Below, piece after piece: positions 21,982 through 50,630 of a stretch of 64,000 nt of DNA. The position numbers and the translations under genes are program-made. The notes beneath the pieces were generated by a model. The model was not told where the DNA came from, searched no databases, and saw only the letters and a list, made by a program, of their open reading frames with translations. Location of the stretch: the NCBI RefSeq assembly GCF_004363005.1, contig NZ_SNYH01000002.1:372001-436000 (forward strand), written 5' to 3'. The stretch is from Tenacibaculum caenipelagi (GTDB taxonomy: Bacteria; Bacteroidota; Bacteroidia; Flavobacteriales; Flavobacteriaceae). Position 1 is the stretch's first letter; every line of letters starts with the position of its first letter.

Positions 21982-24900
21982 ATGAAACACAATTACGCAA
22001 AATTTGTGTTTTTATCTGCTTTTTTATTGGCTGGAGTTCATGTAATGAACGCCCAAGAAAAAAGAGAGTTAAAACACGTAAAGTTCGACAAATCTTCAAA
22101 GGTGTCATTACAAAAAGCACCAGATTTAATTAGACAAAAATTAAAGCTATTTAAAAACGATGGCTTACAAAAAATTAAATCAAACAGAGATGACCTAGGT
22201 TTTACACATGAAAAATTTCAACAAAAATTTAAAGGAGTAAAAGTAGAGTTTGCCACTTACACAGCACATGCAAAGAATGGTACTTTAATGAGTATGAATG
22301 GTGAATTTTATGATGTTGGAAAAGTAAAAGTAATTCCAAAGCTTTCAAAAGCTCAAGCATTCCAAAATGCTTTATCCCATACAGGAGCAGAGAAGTATTT
22401 ATGGGAATTTCCCGAGGCTGCCAAAGAAATGGATAATTATAAAAAGCCAGAAGGAGAGTTATTAATTCTTCCTAGAGAAGTTATAGGGAAAAAAGAAGCG
22501 AGACTAGCTTATAAATTCGACATTTTTGCGACAAAACCATTAAGTAGAGGATATTTATATATAGATGCTCACACAGGAGAAGCATTATTTTACAATGCTA
22601 TTATTAAGCACGTAGATGAGTTTGGTCATGTAGGTGAGCTTACTAAACATGCTAAAAAAAGCAAAAAAACTGCAGAGGCTATAACAGCAGCATTTGTATC
22701 TGGTACCGCGCAAACTCGTTATAGCGGAACAAGAACTATTGAAACATCACTAAGTGGAGGAAACTACATTTTAAGTGATTCTGGAAGAAAAATATATACC
22801 AGAGATGCAAAAAACCAAGCACCAGGTTCTACATACCCATATGTTACAAATTACGATCAGTTTACTGATAATGATAATAATTGGACTACAGCAGAGCACA
22901 GTGCGAACAAAGATGATGCAGCGTTAGATGCTCATTGGGGTGCAATGATGACCTATGAGTATTTTTTACAAAAGCATAACAGAAATAGTTATGACAATAG
23001 TGGGGCTCAAATTAGAAGTTATGTACATGTTGATACTAACTATGACAATGCCTTTTGGAATGGTTCGGTAATGTCTTATGGAGATGGTTCTTCGAACGGA
23101 ACAGAAGGAAACGGTAACTTTGATGCCTTAACTTCTATTGACGTTGCTGCTCATGAAATAGGACACGCAGTATGTACCTATACAGCAAATTTAGCATACC
23201 AAAGAGAATCAGGAGCTTTAAATGAAGGTTTCTCAGATATTTGGGGAGCAGCTGTTGAACATTTTGCAAAAGGAAATGGTAACGATTTAAACCCAGACCT
23301 TTCAGTTTGGTTAATAGGAGACGAAATTGATAGACGTAGTGGTTCAGCTGCTTTACGTTCTATGAATGATCCAAAATCACAAGGGCAACCAGATACCTAC
23401 GGAGGAACTTATTGGAAAAACCCTAACTGTGGAACACCAACAAGATTTAACGACTACTGTGGAGTTCATACAAATTCAGGAGTTTTGAATAAATGGTTTT
23501 ATTTACTAGCAGTTGGTGGATCTGGAACAAATGATGCGAGTGATAACTATAATGTAACTGGAATAGGTATGACTAAAGCAGCTAAAATTGCTTATCGTAC
23601 TGAGGCAAACTATTTATCAGCTAGCTCAACTTTTGCAGATGCTAGAACAGGAGCTATTCAAGCAGCTACTGATTTATACGGAGCAAACTCTCAAGAAGTA
23701 ATTTCTACAACAAATGCTTTTTATGCAGTAAATGTAGGAGAAGAGTTTGTACAAGCATGTGCTTTAGCAGCACCAACAAACTTAAATTCATCGAATATTG
23801 GTGATAATGGATTTACAGTAACTTGGACAGCAGTTTCAGGAGCAGCATCTTATGATGTTACTATTGGAGGTAATACAACAAACGTAGCAGGAACATCATT
23901 TAACGCTACAGGATTATTAAGTGGTACAGAATATACAGTAGCTGTAGCTGCGAAATGTACAGCAGGCGGAACAGGAACACCAGCAACGTTAAATGTAACA
24001 ACAACAGGTACACCACCACTTAATTATTGTTCTTCGAAAGGAAATAGTGTTTCTGATGAGTACATTCAAAGAGTTCAGTTAGGAAGCATTGATCAAACTT
24101 CAGATGGAGGAAATGGATATTCAGACTTTACAACCGTTTCAACAAACTTAACAATTGGCGAGTCTAACACGATAACAATTACGCCAAAATGGACAGGAAC
24201 AATATATAGTGAAGGATATGGTGTATGGATAGATTATAACAAAGACGGAGATTTCTCTGATTCGGGAGAAACGGTTTGGACCAAAGCAGCATCTAAAGAC
24301 ACTCCTGTAAGCACATCATTTACTGTACCGGCTTCTGCAACAGAAGGAGCAACAAGGATGAGAATTGTATTAAAGTATAATGCGACACCAACAGCTTGTG
24401 AAGCAACGTTCTCTTATGGAGAGGTAGAAGATTATACGGTTAACATTATAAATGCTACACCAGATACACAAGCCCCAACAGCTCCAACTAATTTAGCAGT
24501 GTCAAATGTAGAAGAAACTACATTAACATTAAACTGGTCAGCTTCAACAGATAATGTAGGAGTAACGGGTTATGATGTATATAGTGCAAGTGCAGTAATT
24601 GGTTCAACAACTTCTGCTACTACTTTAAATGTTACAGGTTTATCTGCTGGTACAGCTTATACATTTACTGTAAAAGCAAAAGATGCAGCAGGAAATGTTT
24701 CAGTAGCAAGTAATGCAGTAAATGTGACTACAAAATCACCAGATACACAAGCGCCAACAGCTCCTTCAGCTTTAACAGCATCAAATGTAGAAGAAACAAC
24801 AGCAACATTAAGCTGGACAGCTTCAACAGATAATGTAGGAGTAACAAGTTATGAAGTGTTTAATGGTGCTACCAGCGCAGGAACTGTTACAGGAACATCG

Positions 24901-45771: not shown

Positions 45772-47256
45772 TTAATCAATCCAGTCTTTAGTACGTTCAA
45801 CGGCTTTTTGCCATTTTTTATATAATTTTTCTCTTTTTTCGTTTGTGAACGAAGGTATAAACGTTTTGTCTATTTTTCTTCTATTTACAATATCGTTTTG
45901 CTGCCATAAACCAACACAAATTCCTGCTAAATAGGCAGCACCCATGACGGTAGTTTCAATTTCTTCTGGGCGTTCTACATTTACATTTAATATATCTGCT
46001 TGAAATTGCATGAGTAAATTATTTATACAGGCACCACCATCAACTTTTAAAGAAGTAAGTGTTACAGAGCTATCTTTTTGCATTACATCTAAAATATCTT
46101 TAGTTTGATAGGCAAGTGATTGTAAAGTAGCTTTAATTAAATGATTTTTACCCGTATCACGTGTCAATCCAAAAATTGCTCCACGAGCATACATGTCCCA
46201 ATAAGGAGCCCCTAAACCAGCGAAGGCAGGAACAACATACACAGGGTTTTCGTCGGTTACTTTTTCAGCAAAGAGTTCACTTTCTTCTGCATTGTTAATT
46301 ATCTGTAATCCGTCTCGTAACCACTGAATGGCAGATCCAGCAACGAACACACTTCCTTCAAGAGCATAATAAACTTTGTTGTTAATTCCCCAGGCAATAG
46401 TAGAAATTAAACCATTTTCTGAATACTTTAAGTTTTCACCTGTGTTCATCAACATAAAGCAACCTGTTCCATAGGTGTTTTTAGCTTCTCCTATACTAAA
46501 ACAAGCTTGTCCGAATAAAGCTGATTGTTGATCACCTGCAATTCCTGCAATAGGAATTGGAATACCACCCAGTTCATAATTTCCGAAATGAAAAGAAGAA
46601 GGTTTTACTTCAGGCAACATTGAAGTAGGGATTTGGAGTTCTTTTATTAAAGTTTCATCCCAACAGAGGTTTTTTATATCGTATAACATAGTACGAGAAG
46701 CGTTACTGTAATCGGTTGCATGAACCTTTCCTTTGGTTAAATTCCATAATAACCAAGTGTCAATAGTTCCAAATAACAAATTCCCTTTTTCAGCCTCTTC
46801 TTGGGCCCCTTGTACATGGTTTAATATCCAATGAATTTTGGTGGCAGAAAAATAACTATCAATAACCAATCCAGTAGTTTTACGAACATAGTTTTCGAGA
46901 CCTGTTTCTTTGAGTTGTTCGCAAATATTTGCGGTACGTTTGTCTTGCCAAACAATAGCGTTATATATTGGTTTTCCAGTGCTTTTATTCCAAACAACCG
47001 TAGTTTCTCGTTGGTTGGTAATTCCTATGCCTGCAATCTCTGAAGGTGAGATTTTAGCTAGTGTAATAGCTTCTTGTAAAGTATTTAGTTGTGTTTGTAA
47101 AATTTCATTAGCATCGTGTTCTACCCATCCTGACTGTGGGAAAATTTGTTGAAATTCTTGTTGAGTTTTAGCAACTATCTTTTCTTCTTTGTTAAGAATT
47201 ACTGTACGACAGCTAGTGGTTCCTTGATCTAAAGCAATGATATATTTATGAGTCAT
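45772..47256 (-). CDS. glpK: Glycerol kinase
   Basis: Phosphorylates glycerol with ATP to give sn-glycerol 3-phosphate. FGGY-family motifs: N-terminal phosphate loop [79 protein letters not shown], and [26 protein letters not shown], all matching GlpK. Length 494 is normal. No glpF or glpD nearby; the only partner is the PNPOx-like gene. A weak -7 box TAAAGTTG (47288-47295) lies upstream. Confidence 0.97.
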
Positions 47257-47305
47257 TTATACATAAAACGATTAAACGCCTAATTTACAACTTTAGTGAT
47301 AGTAA

Positions 47306-47338
47306 CAAAAAAACCTCCTAGATTTTCTAGAAGGTTTT
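47306..47338 (-). terminator. Terminator of small unit A (33-aa peptide)
   Basis: On the minus strand AAACCTTCTAGA/TCTAGGAGGTTT followed by TTTT. Confidence 0.85.
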
Positions 47339-47364
47339 ACACGTTAAGTTCGGTTAGTAAACTT

Positions 47365-47466
47365 TTAGTTTCTTAAAGCGTATCCAGCTCCTTTACCGAA
47401 TTCGGCTAAAACTGAAAATAAGGTGTTTAAACCTTTGCTTGTTTTACGTAATAGTAATTTCCCCAT
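47365..47466 (-). CDS. 33-residue basic peptide (small unit A)
   Basis: ATG at 47466 to TAA at 47365: MGKLLLRKTSKGLNT, then LFSVLAEFGKGAGYALRN. Net positive, amphipathic, no signal peptide. It is preceded by a -7 box (47523-47530) and the operator-like direct repeats of unit A and followed by a terminator, so it is a complete transcription unit of its own. No family recognised. It could be a peptide signal, a toxin-like peptide, or the coding part of a regulatory RNA. Confidence 0.6.
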   Translation of the reverse strand: MGKLLLRKTSKGLNTLFSVLAEFGKGAGYALRN

Positions 47467-47522
47467 TTTTAAAAATTTTAATTAATTCCCTTTTAATTAA
47501 TTGTTATTAAAGAATAACATTT

Positions 47523-47588
47523 CAAAAGTACACTGATAATCAAGGAATTAAAAAGGGATTACCGAAAAAACAAATGTTGTTTTCCGAA
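47523..47588 (-). promoter_or_regulatory. Unit A promoter with direct-repeat operator
   Basis: Minus strand: repeat TTCGGAAA starts at 47588, repeat TTCGGTAATCCC starts at 47566 (22 bp later), and -7 box TACTTTTG starts at 47530 (36 bp after the second repeat). Same geometry as units B and C. The transcript begins with hairpin TGTTATT-CTTT-AATAACA (47519-47502). Confidence 0.72.
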
Positions 47589-47595
47589 AAGGCAT

Positions 47596-47671
47596 AAAAA
47601 AACCTTCTAGAAAGTCTAGAAGGTTATTTTTCCCCTTAAATGTCTTTTTTCAATTAATCTTGAAAAGAAGA
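47596..47671 (-). ncRNA. Predicted small RNA, unit B
   Basis: About 75 nt from a -7 box at 47677-47684 to a terminator. 5' hairpin TCTTCTTTTCAA-GATTAA-TTGAAAAAAGA (47671-47643, one bulge), an A-rich single-stranded linker (GGGGAAAAATAA), and terminator stem AACCTTCTAGA/TCTAGAAGGTT with T-run. No open reading frame longer than a few codons. Confidence 0.55.
47597..47629 (-). terminator. Terminator of small unit B
   Basis: Perfect 11-bp stem AACCTTCTAGA/TCTAGAAGGTT (47601-47611, 47615-47625) with A/T-rich flanks. Confidence 0.85.
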
Positions 47672-47676
47672 TATTA

Positions 47677-47742
47677 CAAATATAGAGGCTAAGTTTGTTT
47701 ATAAAAAGGGTATTTCCGTAATAAAAAGTGCGGATTTCTGCA
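47677..47742 (-). promoter_or_regulatory. Unit B promoter with direct-repeat operator
   Basis: Minus strand: repeat TGCAGAAA starts at 47742, repeat TACGGAAATACCC starts at 47720 (22 bp), -7 box TATATTTG starts at 47684 (36 bp). Confidence 0.72.
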
Positions 47743-47765
47743 AAAGCTAATTTTTCTCGTATAAA

Positions 47766-47843
47766 TAAAAAAGACTTTTAGATTTCTAAAAGTCTTTTTA
47801 TTTTTCTTCTTTTTCAAGATTCTTCCCAACAAGAATTGAATCA
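47766..47843 (-). ncRNA. Predicted small RNA, unit C
   Basis: About 75 nt from -7 box 47849-47856 to a terminator. 5' hairpin TTCAATTCTT-GTTGGG-AAGAA(TC)TTGAA (47840-47813), A-rich linker (AAAAATAA, also present in unit B), then terminator AAGACTTTTAGA/TCTAAAAGTCTT (47771-47796) with T-run. An ATG-started frame exists but reads through the terminator, so RNA is preferred. Confidence 0.55.
47768..47800 (-). terminator. Terminator of small unit C
   Basis: Perfect 12-bp stem AAGACTTTTAGA/TCTAAAAGTCTT with A- and T-runs on both sides. Confidence 0.85.
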
Positions 47844-47848
47844 TATTG

Positions 47849-47914
47849 CAAAGATAAATGTCATCTTTTGGGCTTGAAAAGGGATATCCGCAGAAAGAAA
47901 GGTGTGTTTCCGCA
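47849..47914 (-). promoter_or_regulatory. Unit C promoter with direct-repeat operator
   Basis: Minus strand: repeat TGCGGAAA starts at 47914, repeat TGCGGATATCCC starts at 47892 (22 bp), -7 box TATCTTTG starts at 47856 (36 bp). It begins only seven bases after the stop of the response regulator gene. Confidence 0.74.
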
Positions 47915-47920
47915 ATGGGG

Positions 47921-48598
47921 TTAATCTATAATTCCTAACTCTTTTGCCTTAAGTACTAAATCGGTATTGTTATTAGCTTGTAAGTCAGTGCGTAGTTTAG
48001 AAAGTTTGCTTTCTATTGATCGTACTTTAAGTATTGAACCATCACTTTTTTTTACCAAACCTTCTAGGTTTGAAATTTTAGCATGTTTAGGAAGTTCTTT
48101 TAATATTTGAACCGCAACATCATCCATCTGAATTTCAACCAAAGCTCTTTTTAGAAGTTTTTGATGAATTTCATGAGTATAGTAAACCTCATCTTTCAGC
48201 ATTTTCTGAATAGCAAAGGTTAACTCATCTACACTGCAGTTTCCTTTTAAAATATAGGCTGAAGGATTTAAATTATGAATTACATTAAAAACTCTATTGG
48301 TTTCTGAATGTCCTGTAATAACACCAATTTTAATCGGAATTGCTTCTTTTTGAATTGTTTTTATCAATGATTCTCCATCATCTAAAGTGACATTCCTGTT
48401 TTGATTGTCAAAGCTTAAATCGGTAAATACTATATGGAAAGGATTAGTATGTAAGCTCGATTTTATTTTTGAGAATGCTTCATCACAAGAATTAGCTGTT
48501 TCAATTTCTAAACCGTCTATCTTTTTTAAAAAAGACAAGATTCCTTCAATTATCAGTTGATGATCATCAACTAGGAGTATTTTTGTTTGTCCAGCCAT
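47921..48598 (-). CDS. Response regulator, NarL/LuxR-like
   Basis: 225 residues. Receiver domain 1-130 with VDDHQ (10-13), phosphoacceptor D60 in FTDLSF, and the Lys of YILKGN. The C-terminal 70 residues have a divergent LuxR-type HTH: ILKELPKHAKISNLEGLVKKS...LKVRSIESKLSKLRTDLQANNNTDLVLKAKELGIID, matching the spacing of GerE (SIESKLSKL as recognition helix, N-x-TDLVLKAKELG at the end). It overlaps the kinase gene by 32 bp. It is the obvious candidate to bind the three direct-repeat operators just downstream. Confidence 0.9.
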   Translation of the reverse strand: MAGQTKILLVDDHQLIIEGILSFLKKIDGLEIETANSCDEAFSKIKSSLHTNPFHIVFTDLSFDNQNRNVTLDDGESLIKTIQKEAIPIKIGVITGHSETNRVFNVIHNLNPSAYILKGNCSVDELTFAIQKMLKDEVYYTHEIHQKLLKRALVEIQMDDVAVQILKELPKHAKISNLEGLVKKSDGSILKVRSIESKLSKLRTDLQANNNTDLVLKAKELGIID

Positions 48599-50426
48599 TT
48601 AAGGGTATTTGAATACTGGTTTGTGTTCCTTTACCTTCCTCACTGCTAATAGTTAATGTTCCATTTAACTCTTCAACACGTTCTTGTAGGTTTTGTAAAC
48701 CTATTCCTTTTTTGTTAATGTTGGTGTCAAAACCAATACCATTATCAGCAATACCCAAATGTACATATTTTTTGTGTACAAAAAAATCAATTGTTAAAGT
48801 ACTAGCCTTGGCATATTTTTTACAGTTTTGTATGCTTTCACGAATACTTAAGTACAATAACCGTTTTATAGAGTTGTCTACTCTAGACCAGTCGTAGCTT
48901 TGTAACCCGTTAACTTTTATCTTAAAGCCAATCTCAAAATAGTCACTAACTAAATTGATGATTTGGTTTTTAAAAGAAACTTTATCAAAGCTTATACTAC
49001 TTAATTGATGTGACAGATTACGAACATTTTCTTTAACGGTGTCTAATTTTTGAGCTTCTTCTACTAAATTTGAGTTTTGTAATTTTTGATACAACAAACG
49101 CAGGTCGCCAGCCACTTCATCGTGTAACGATTTGGCTATTTGCTGACGTTCGTGTTCACGTACTTGTATTTGTTGTAGTTGTGCTTGATACAATAATTTT
49201 CTTTTGCGTTGAAAATAAAACATAACACTAAAACCAAATAGTAAAAGGCCAACAGCAGCAGCTAGCCACCCTATCGTTTTTTGTTGTTTATGATAAAGTA
49301 TTTCTGCTTGCTTTTGTTGATTTTCAGTTTTTAAAACTACATTTTCTTTTTCTTTTTTATCGGTTTCGTACCTAATTTTAGCAAATTGGTTTTTTAATTG
49401 ACGTTCGTTTTGAAATAAGCTATCACTCAGAGTTATATACTCGTCTAAATACTGTTTAGACTGCTCACCACTGGTTAAATCTGAAAGGTTTTTCAAGGCT
49501 TCTAACCAACGTTTATTATTGTGGGTTTGTTTTGCATATTGTAAGGCTTTATTAGCATGAAATAAAGCTTTTTGATTTAGGTTTAGGTCTTTGTAATAAT
49601 TAGATAAGTTGATATGAGTTGTACTCATACCACTATAATTATTGAGTTTTTTTCTAATTGATAAAACTTCATTATATTGTTGTAATACATCTTTTTTATT
49701 ACCTAGCGAATAGTTACTAAAAGAAAAACCTTCTAACAATAAAGCATATTGGATAGGAAATTTTTCTTTGACATTACTTTGTGATAGGCCTTTCTTAAAA
49801 TATGAGATGGCTTTTTGGTGTTTATTTTGTTTTTGATATAATACACCTATATTGTTTATAATGTATAGATAGCCTATATTATTTTTATTTAATTTATTAT
49901 TTTCAACAGCCTTAACATAATAATGAAGAGCACCATTGTTCTGACCTAATTCCTCTGAAACTAACCCTAAGTTGTTATAAACACTTTCCAAATAAATAGT
50001 AGAGTTAATGGGGTCTAAGTATTGTAAGGCTTCTATAGAGCTAATTTCACTTCCTAAAAAATCTTTGGCTTCTCGTTGTAAATTAGCCAAACTTAACAAA
50101 CGTCTTCCAATTGCTAAAGAATCATATATTTTTTTAGATACATCCTTGGATAAGTGGTAATAATAAAAAGCACTGTCATTGGAATAAGTAAGTTTCTTTT
50201 GTAATGCTTTAAAATGATAATATTTTGCCAGTAAAACAGAATCCTTAGTTTCTGTATATAAAGAATCAACTTGTGTGGTAATTGTTTTTAATAGAGGAAG
50301 TTTTTTGTCAAAGTAGGCTTGTCTTCCCTTTTCTATTAAAGAATCTCGTATAGAAAAATAGCTTTTGTTTTCTTGAGAAAAGATAAAAGATGAACAAAAT
50401 AGAATAATATAAAAGAAACTTTTCAT
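48567..50426 (-). CDS. TPR-containing sensor histidine kinase (HisKA_3 type), kinase 1
   Basis: About 619 residues. Signal peptide (SFFYIILFCSSFIFSQ), periplasmic TPR region (about 85-340, e.g. YNNLGLVSEELGQNNGALHYYVKA), coiled coil, one membrane helix (WLAAAVGLLLFGFSVMFYF, about 382-400), then a HisKA_3 dimerisation domain with the phosphorylated His in QQIAKSLHDEVAGDLRLLY and HATPase_c (DNGIGFD, GIGLQNLQERVEELNG). The frame runs to an ATG at 50489, but the ATG at 50426 begins a proper signal peptide and lies 30 bases after a -7 box. Pairs with regulator 47921 by overlap. Confidence 0.92.
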   Translation of the reverse strand: MKSFFYIILFCSSFIFSQENKSYFSIRDSLIEKGRQAYFDKKLPLLKTITTQVDSLYTETKDSVLLAKYYHFKALQKKLTYSNDSAFYYYHLSKDVSKKIYDSLAIGRRLLSLANLQREAKDFLGSEISSIEALQYLDPINSTIYLESVYNNLGLVSEELGQNNGALHYYVKAVENNKLNKNNIGYLYIINNIGVLYQKQNKHQKAISYFKKGLSQSNVKEKFPIQYALLLEGFSFSNYSLGNKKDVLQQYNEVLSIRKKLNNYSGMSTTHINLSNYYKDLNLNQKALFHANKALQYAKQTHNNKRWLEALKNLSDLTSGEQSKQYLDEYITLSDSLFQNERQLKNQFAKIRYETDKKEKENVVLKTENQQKQAEILYHKQQKTIGWLAAAVGLLLFGFSVMFYFQRKRKLLYQAQLQQIQVREHERQQIAKSLHDEVAGDLRLLYQKLQNSNLVEEAQKLDTVKENVRNLSHQLSSISFDKVSFKNQIINLVSDYFEIGFKIKVNGLQSYDWSRVDNSIKRLLYLSIRESIQNCKKYAKASTLTIDFFVHKKYVHLGIADNGIGFDTNINKKGIGLQNLQERVEELNGTLTISSEEGKGTQTSIQIPLNGWTNKNTPS

Positions 50427-50441
50427 TACTATATATAAAGT

Positions 50442-50472
50442 AAAACCATCACTTTTCAAAAGTAATGGTTTT
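50442..50472. promoter_or_regulatory. 31-bp inverted repeat overlapping the -7 box of kinase 1
   Basis: AAAACCATCACTTTT/AAAAGTAATGGTTTT, one mismatch in 15 pairs, centred on base 57 of this block. It contains the minus-strand -7 box TACTTTTG (50457-50464). It may be an operator, or the terminator of a transcript coming from the 42-aa gene. Confidence 0.6.
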
Positions 50473-50630
50473 AACCTTAAGTTGTACATGATGTCAAATA
50501 ACTATAAATTTAAAACCTACAAACACTATCATTTTACTTCTTTTTAATTCAATCATTATAAATAATACTTAGAGTAAAAAATAATTTCTACAAATTTAAT
50601 TTTAGTAGTTAACAAGTTTGTTCTGATTTT

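Follow-up and report, generated by a model that had tools for sequence, protein, structure and literature searches.

To our knowledge, few small-RNA (sRNA) circuits have been worked out in Bacteroidota. Vibrio Qrr RNAs are several related sRNAs placed under one response regulator, LuxO, and rely on a sigma54 promoter, an NtrC-type activator and Hfq, while RNAs of the RsmY/RsmZ type carry GGA elements that titrate CsrA/RsmA. According to the available parts of a report on streptococci (PMC8186281), the CiaR site is a direct repeat, TTTAAG-N5-TTTAAG, several short csRNAs belong to this system, sometimes in tandem, and five of 15 CiaR promoters, the strongest ones, drive sRNAs. FopS and GibS of Bacteroides thetaiotaomicron are described, in the sections accessible to us, as multicopy, terminator-ended sRNAs of ~65-70 nt; FopS occurs in varied gene contexts, has a single-stranded 5' seed and canonical promoters, is bound by the RRM protein RbpB, and is assigned an unknown regulator at most (PMC11697453). 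Rfp18 of Flavobacterium is, in the excerpt at hand, one sRNA that pairs via its third stem-loop (PMC9723704).

The locus described here lies in a 64,000-nt stretch of the Tenacibaculum caenipelagi genome (contig NZ_SNYH01000002.1, positions 372,001 to 436,000; hereafter the window, whose numbering is used unless another contig or locus is named). On its minus strand, a TPR sensor kinase gene is followed by a response regulator gene, by three units termed C, B and A, and by glpK, encoding glycerol kinase. The sensor histidine kinase (640 aa, 48567..50489, minus strand), identified from the ORF list and Pfam, matches TPR_12 (1.5e-13), HATPase_c (2.2e-9) and, weakly, HisKA_3 (0.024), and its N-terminal region has what was judged by eye to be a signal-like hydrophobic segment. 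The response regulator (225 aa, 47921..48598, minus strand) was characterised by Pfam, an AlphaFold2 model and Foldseek; Response_reg is its sole Pfam domain, and no DNA-binding family was found in it by Pfam. In the predicted model (mean pLDDT 80.7, with residues 201-225 at 50-61) a receiver is joined to a C-terminal helical domain of the NarL/RcsB type, and Foldseek aligned RcsB, spr1814, LiaR, VraR and DesR with the model over most of its length. The regulator reaches 32 bits against the NCBIfam family UvrY/SirA/GacA, for which the cut-off is 280, and is 73-91% identical to counterparts in named species, for example T. agarivorans and T. discolor.

The array resembles known systems in outline but lacks features that define the named families. 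What defines a response-regulator-driven sRNA array in general, namely related terminator-ended units, a shared operator and one linked regulator, was found. Like the CiaR csRNAs, as portrayed in the available part of that report, the array would have one response regulator and a direct-repeat site driving several short sRNAs. Unlike them, it has two TTGCGGAAATCC half-sites 22 nt apart and no TTTAAG-N5-TTTAAG, as well as a Bacteroidota-type -7 box; its regulator has a NarL-type fold, the units come straight after the gene for that regulator, and the series includes a peptide gene. It resembles GacA-RsmY/RsmZ in a G-rich GGA element and a proposed decoy logic, and perhaps in having sRNAs switched on by a NarL-type regulator; it differs in that each RNA has a single main motif and that the units form arrays which include a peptide gene, and CsrA (PF02599) had no match in the T. 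caenipelagi genome, control genomes being positive. An analogy with Qrr RNAs had been drawn in the preliminary description, and it is apt for the organisation, several related sRNAs under one response regulator. It fails for the TAnnTTTG promoter, for the 225-aa regulator with Response_reg as its only Pfam domain and for Hfq (PF17209), which had no match in the T. caenipelagi genome but was found in control genomes, and no Rfam Qrr match was listed at E<=5 in 47250-47960. FopS/GibS, in the accessible sections of that work, are likewise multicopy terminator-ended sRNAs of Bacteroidota, but the Tenacibaculum units have a 5' hairpin, form a linked array and have no Rfam match, and no RRM_1 protein (PF00076) was matched in the T. 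caenipelagi genome. At the gathering score, Rfam gave no match in the array or in eight loci, and one tRNA elsewhere in the window; at E<=5 the array yielded sub-threshold matches only. Rfp18 is similar in being a conserved structured flavobacterial sRNA and is described, in the portion of the paper available (PMC9723704), without an array or a dedicated two-component system. The Tenacibaculum array appears to be a small-RNA signalling circuit that has not been described before; no description of it was found among the best matches in the open-access PMC literature.

Each unit is preceded by a 70-nt operator-promoter in which the two half-sites are followed by the TAnnTTTG -7 box; in the DNA behind the regulator in relatives, the elements run TTGCGGAAATCCACA, a T-rich spacer, TTGCGGAAATCCCCTTTT and the -7 box. 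An initial scan with free spacing gave 80 operator/-7 pairs, 71 of them with an identical distance, and the off-distance pairs were mostly second -7-like boxes. A weight matrix built from those 71 pairs and refined three times detected 131 operator-promoters above a cut of 25 bits. They are spread over 33 loci and lie within 4 kb downstream of the regulator, on the same strand as it. The 33 loci are that of the window and those of 32 relatives, namely L009-L041 apart from L039, which is 58% identical and gave no operator site with the weight matrix; L042-L046 (26-33% identity) were left out. No site rose above the cut in a reversed-sequence control over the loci, where the best score was -4.0 bits, although the locus scores are not independent because the matrix was trained on those same loci. 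In the window, the operators of unit C (47849..47918, -7 box TATCTTTG), unit B (47677..47746, -7 box TATATTTG) and unit A (47523..47592, -7 box TACTTTTG), all on the minus strand, score 56.3, 64.3 and 54.4 bits, and the next best site scores -18.0, so that a promoter before each of the first two units, as originally proposed, is far beyond chance. Their E values under model R1 are 2.7e-11, 3.2e-13 and 9.8e-11, respectively, all three operators having been included in its training.

The loci hold between two and eight units (median 3), and the first operator lies 1-6 nt past the regulator stop codon in 30 of 33. The first unit behind the regulator was typed C in all 33 loci, type C denoting a unit that is neither A nor B in a mechanical B/C split that wrongly placed at least four units resembling B under C (L012 at 182, L022 at 179, L033 at 725 and L035 at 1322). 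One L020 unit masked with N and one L033 site at 19.3 bits, under the 25-bit cut, were left out, and an A-type L030 unit (1193, spacing +1 nt) falls outside the 131 because the matrix is ungapped and accepts a single spacing.

Throughout the 3.27-Mb T. caenipelagi genome there are five operator sites, the best other match having E=0.18 (R1), in a search that is more independent than the locus scores, though the three window sites are in the model. The two sites beyond these three lie at C1:583028, before a remote unit termed D, and at C1:318275, before a gene for a 91-aa protein. Of 97 Tenacibaculum genomes, T. caenipelagi included, 60 have the regulator gene, and 49 of these show the operator at E<=1e-3, versus three of the 37 that lack the gene (Fisher 2.8e-13, indicative only since the genomes are related); at E<=1e-7 the counts are 28 and none. 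The operator was not found at E<=1e-3 in 11 of the 60 regulator-bearing genomes, and a single genome has up to 17 sites at this threshold. The earlier proposal of an array of related RNAs tied to one response regulator is supported by linkage, by the single operator type and by this co-occurrence, and the regulator probably binds this operator.

A family-wide operator search with stricter filters matched two of 397 genomes at E<=1e-5, T. caenipelagi and one congener, and the operator model is therefore genus-bound; the search missed a second congener, G020, which is weak at E=4.5e-5 and has the same operator geometry behind its regulator (L137). Yet the geometry is kept at L141, from another genus, where TGCGGA-N16-TGCGGA-N30-TAACTTTG stands behind the regulator's relative with exact spacing, a pattern with no reversed-control match in 834,522 bases. 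L141 is alone in this among four regulator relatives from two other genera, the geometry not being matched in L138, L139 or L140; a small ORF (MENLIYALIFVLSNGLFFNPN...) comes after its operator. Among other congeners, the operator precedes a different RNA type with a AAGGGATTAATTGC-like sequence in L091-L095. In L108 an operator lies upstream of a 609-aa ORF that looks lipoprotein-like by eye. Separately, similar coding stretches (TTACTCCTACATTATCTGTTGAAGC...) recur at 23846-24851 of the window, minus strand, as in a large repetitive surface protein; these repeats are known only as weak operator-matrix matches.

The two tandem minus-strand units of the preliminary description, at ~47846-47763 and 47674-47595, are borne out. 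Unit C (47763..47846), a predicted sRNA of ~80 nt, comprises a weak 5' hairpin that includes GGGA, an A/G-rich linker and a terminator (47799-47768). Unit B (47595..47674), also a predicted sRNA of ~80 nt, comprises a 5' hairpin, a ATTTAAGGGGAAAA single strand and a terminator (47625-47601), and matches model R2, whose training included it, with E=1.2e-11; as R2 is paired only in the terminator, its matches mainly reflect motif and terminator. The strong terminators that had been noticed are real features of the sequence, with six terminator-like sites in 2.5 kb on both strands versus 1.1 in shuffles. Relative to dinucleotide shuffles, whole-unit folding has z = -3.4 for B (0/200 as good) and -3.2 for C (2/200), an excess that comes mainly from the terminators. 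A 5' hairpin shared by both units fared less well: taken alone, that of the window's B is borderline (9/200 shuffles as good) and that of its C is no better than chance (90/200). The AAAAATAA linker, once thought part of a shared design, occurs in just two of 54 C and one of 55 B units, the window's included, and is therefore incidental.

Over a broader set, 56% of 27 representative B hairpins beat 95% of their shuffles (mean z -2.1), compared with 13% of 39 representative C hairpins (mean z -1.1). Unit D, with a B-like design under the operator, is found at C1:583028 in T. caenipelagi and in one stretch from each of ten other genomes, and in B/D hairpins the sequence varies while self-complementarity is kept. 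In a sample of 20 divergent B/D hairpins out of 63, a hairpin's own arms pair at a mean of -9.2 kcal/mol and swapped arms at -5.4, and none of 20,000 permutations was as good (p<=5e-5). A lack of compensatory change, named in the preliminary description as a refutation, is thereby countered only in part: across these divergent hairpins each arm suits its own partner better than a swapped one, but within subfamilies compensatory change is scarce and statistically weak, with two-sided change in two of nine pairs in A5 and one of 11 in A6 (217/500 shuffles as high in each) and in none of 10 in A7, and the window-type hairpin, represented by L009, is not distinct in the arm-swap test (53% of swaps as good). 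As judged from these comparisons, the predicted hairpin is well supported in the B/D class but poorly so in the window's unit C. Tandem B copies are near-identical in L028, L030, L033 and L037, which suggests dosage selection.

Beyond the preliminary description, the analysis brought out the direct-repeat operator, unit A as a member of the same series, and a conserved RNA element, GGGA/AAGGGGA, which lies near a hairpin and has the same sense in the RNA units and in the peptide leader. Counted over distinct units, GGGA is present in 42 of 42 B units, which were selected by GGGA, in 49 of 50 C units, which were not, and in 15 of 18 A leaders. On average, the motif is predicted to be unpaired with a probability of 0.68 in B and 0.86 in D, against 0.52 for the 5' part in both; in A (0.56) and C (0.53) it is hardly more exposed than the whole 5' part (~0.5). 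Minimum-energy folding places the motif in a single strand in B and in most D units. Unit B of the window has the conserved motif as TTTAAGGGGAAA at 47629..47640, minus strand (contig C2:419629-419640 in the genome). The sequence TTTAAGGGGAAW, and hence its full complement, occurs at just five places in the T. caenipelagi genome, and a terminator follows the sense motif at four of them. Over 397 family genomes, TTTAAGGGGAAA shows by inspection no excess over a reversed control, and a terminator followed it at none of 30 examined sites in other genomes versus four of five in T. caenipelagi. Three more hairpin-TTTAAGGGGAAA sites were seen in T. caenipelagi, at C3:290455 (L145), C4:107322 (L146) and C3:274413 (L144); two have a terminator and none a recognised operator, and they may be RNAs of this class that are driven by other promoters.

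Unit A, the third member of the C/B series with the common promoter design, spans 47592-47310 and contains a small gene (47365..47466 with its stop codon, minus strand) for a 33-aa peptide, MGKLLLRKTSKGLNTLFSVLAEFGKGAGYALRN, recognised by coding comparison, and a terminator (47310..47338, minus strand) found by terminator scan. Its homologues comprise 36 distinct DNA sequences giving 34 peptides of 32-33 aa, with a pN/pS of 0.35 and pS greater than pN in all 149 similar pairs, which are not independent and were limited to pN<0.25 and at least four differences, limits that lower the ratio. By this comparison, unit A is predicted to encode a 33-aa cationic peptide under purifying selection. The peptide is also amphipathic, the helical moment of residues 3-24 exceeding all but 0.5% of shuffles, and it has no Pfam family over the cut-off and no NCBIfam family. 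Remote pairs of unit-A-like peptide genes, with an operator before each and ends reading GASYALQH or GASYALQN, were seen in L116 and L117; their second sites score low because the matrix accepts one spacing only. The 91-aa protein (MEEIVFK...) is encoded directly behind the operator at C1:318275 (plus strand), and this conserved ~90-aa protein stands behind the operator in nine of 27 scanned congener stretches, such as L051:1589-1864; the 91-aa protein, too, has no Pfam family over the cut-off and no NCBIfam family. Near the 91-aa gene in L051, at 2148-2324, is a 58-aa cysteine-rich peptide with a leader that is double-glycine-like by eye; it resembles a bacteriocin or RiPP precursor and has no NCBIfam match.

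Promoter architecture, conservation, regulator linkage, covariation of the B/D hairpins and the coding of unit A, all legible in the DNA itself, lead us to infer that a two-component cassette controls an array of trans-acting RNAs, a reading that we consider probable though well short of certain. The TPR kinase would phosphorylate the NarL-type regulator, which in turn would bind the pair of direct half-sites, spaced by 22 nt, that precedes every TAnnTTTG promoter and would switch on in parallel the transcription of the terminator-ended RNAs C, B and D, of the 33-aa peptide mRNA (A) and of the 91-aa protein gene. The RNAs would then act in trans, most likely via AAGGGGA. As decoys present in many copies, they would titrate some factor that binds the peptide leader as well and is presumably an RNA-binding protein. 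This decoy mode, considered by itself, is tentative; it is favoured, with GGGA/AAGGGGA as the working part, because the same-sense element is common to the RNA units and the peptide leader, and it gains from there being no long complement of the element elsewhere in the T. caenipelagi genome. Against it stand the moderate exposure of the motif and the failure to detect CsrA, RRM_1 or Hfq in that genome, and at the 91-aa gene the leaders are too short for the full module.

Evidence to separate decoys from antisense RNAs is thin. Like Qrr or the streptococcal csRNAs, the units might act by base-pairing of AAGGGGA, or of a variable loop or linker, with mRNAs near start codons, which we regard as possible but unlikely. 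The single-stranded position of the motif in B and most D units, by minimum-energy folding, would fit this, and multicopy sRNAs elsewhere do act in this way, csRNA1-1 on pilT (PMC8186281) and FopS on susC (PMC11697453), going by the available portions of these papers. However, since a terminator follows the sense motif at four of the five genome sites of TTTAAGGGGAAW, no long perfect mRNA target exists by this full-length motif, and a seed would not need the same-sense motif that is also present in the peptide leader.

Further from the favoured array of trans-acting RNAs is the idea, improbable in our view, that the product of unit C, and perhaps of other units, is a very short basic peptide and not a non-coding RNA. 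The preliminary description had seen no convincing reading frame in either unit. This stands for B, where no such frame is apparent by eye, and is less sure for C, in which a frame of ~10-16 codons or longer, opened by ATG or TTG and reading LLGRILKK.. or LGKILKK.., spans GGGA in 13 of the 33 first units. These 13 are close to the window's type (L009, L010, L011, L017-L021, L023, L029, L037, L041 and the window itself); the frame slightly lowers our confidence in an array of trans-acting RNAs. By eye the frame resembles the N-terminus of peptide A, and L016 has MGKLRKEKSK. Yet L012-L015 have similar residues in frame without an ATG, GTG or TTG start, the frame was not seen in more distant C units, the same letters form the C hairpin, and a codon test does not single the frame out, with pN/pS values of 0.59, 0.43 and 0.38 in the three registers of 13 cores. 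Longer frames of 26-70 codons in B and C recur only among close relatives or copies that are nearly identical, and most of them begin inside the terminator or run through it; the 51-codon frame of the window's unit C likewise runs through that unit's terminator. A peptide-RNA feedback loop, in which peptide A would itself be the ligand of the TPR sensor kinase, or cause the stress that this kinase senses, and the array would titrate a GGGGA-binding protein that otherwise blocks translation of the peptide leader, is a speculative idea to which we give little credence; if true, it would be RNA-decoy signalling that involves neither CsrA nor Hfq and whose gain is set by the length of the array.

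It is very improbable that B and C are decayed, functionless copies of peptide unit A, reduced to transcribed leaders with a terminator. Tandem duplication is evident, and the operator and the hairpin-AAGGGGA layout are common to A, B and D, but C precedes B in most loci that have both, in L014 and L015 C and B are retained and glpK comes next, with no A between, and in B/D the covarying arms and the conserved motif argue for selection on the RNA. The least credible alternative, a DNA sponge of operators buffering the regulator while the RNAs do not matter, has in its favour up to 17 sites per genome at E<=1e-3 but leaves the retained -7 box, terminator and conserved RNA element without a use. 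That A and either B or C form a type I toxin-antitoxin pair was set aside because the units share the motif in the same sense and TCCC occurs in none of the A or B 5' parts and in three of 50 C parts.

An array of trans-acting RNAs under a two-component cassette would be of interest in a genome where Hfq, CsrA and an RRM_1 protein were all undetected. The cassette is compact and present in many species of one genus, bringing together a predicted regulator, an operator, an RNA class and a micropeptide in a form that is directly testable, and its two to eight copies per locus offer a natural experiment on why sRNAs multiply.
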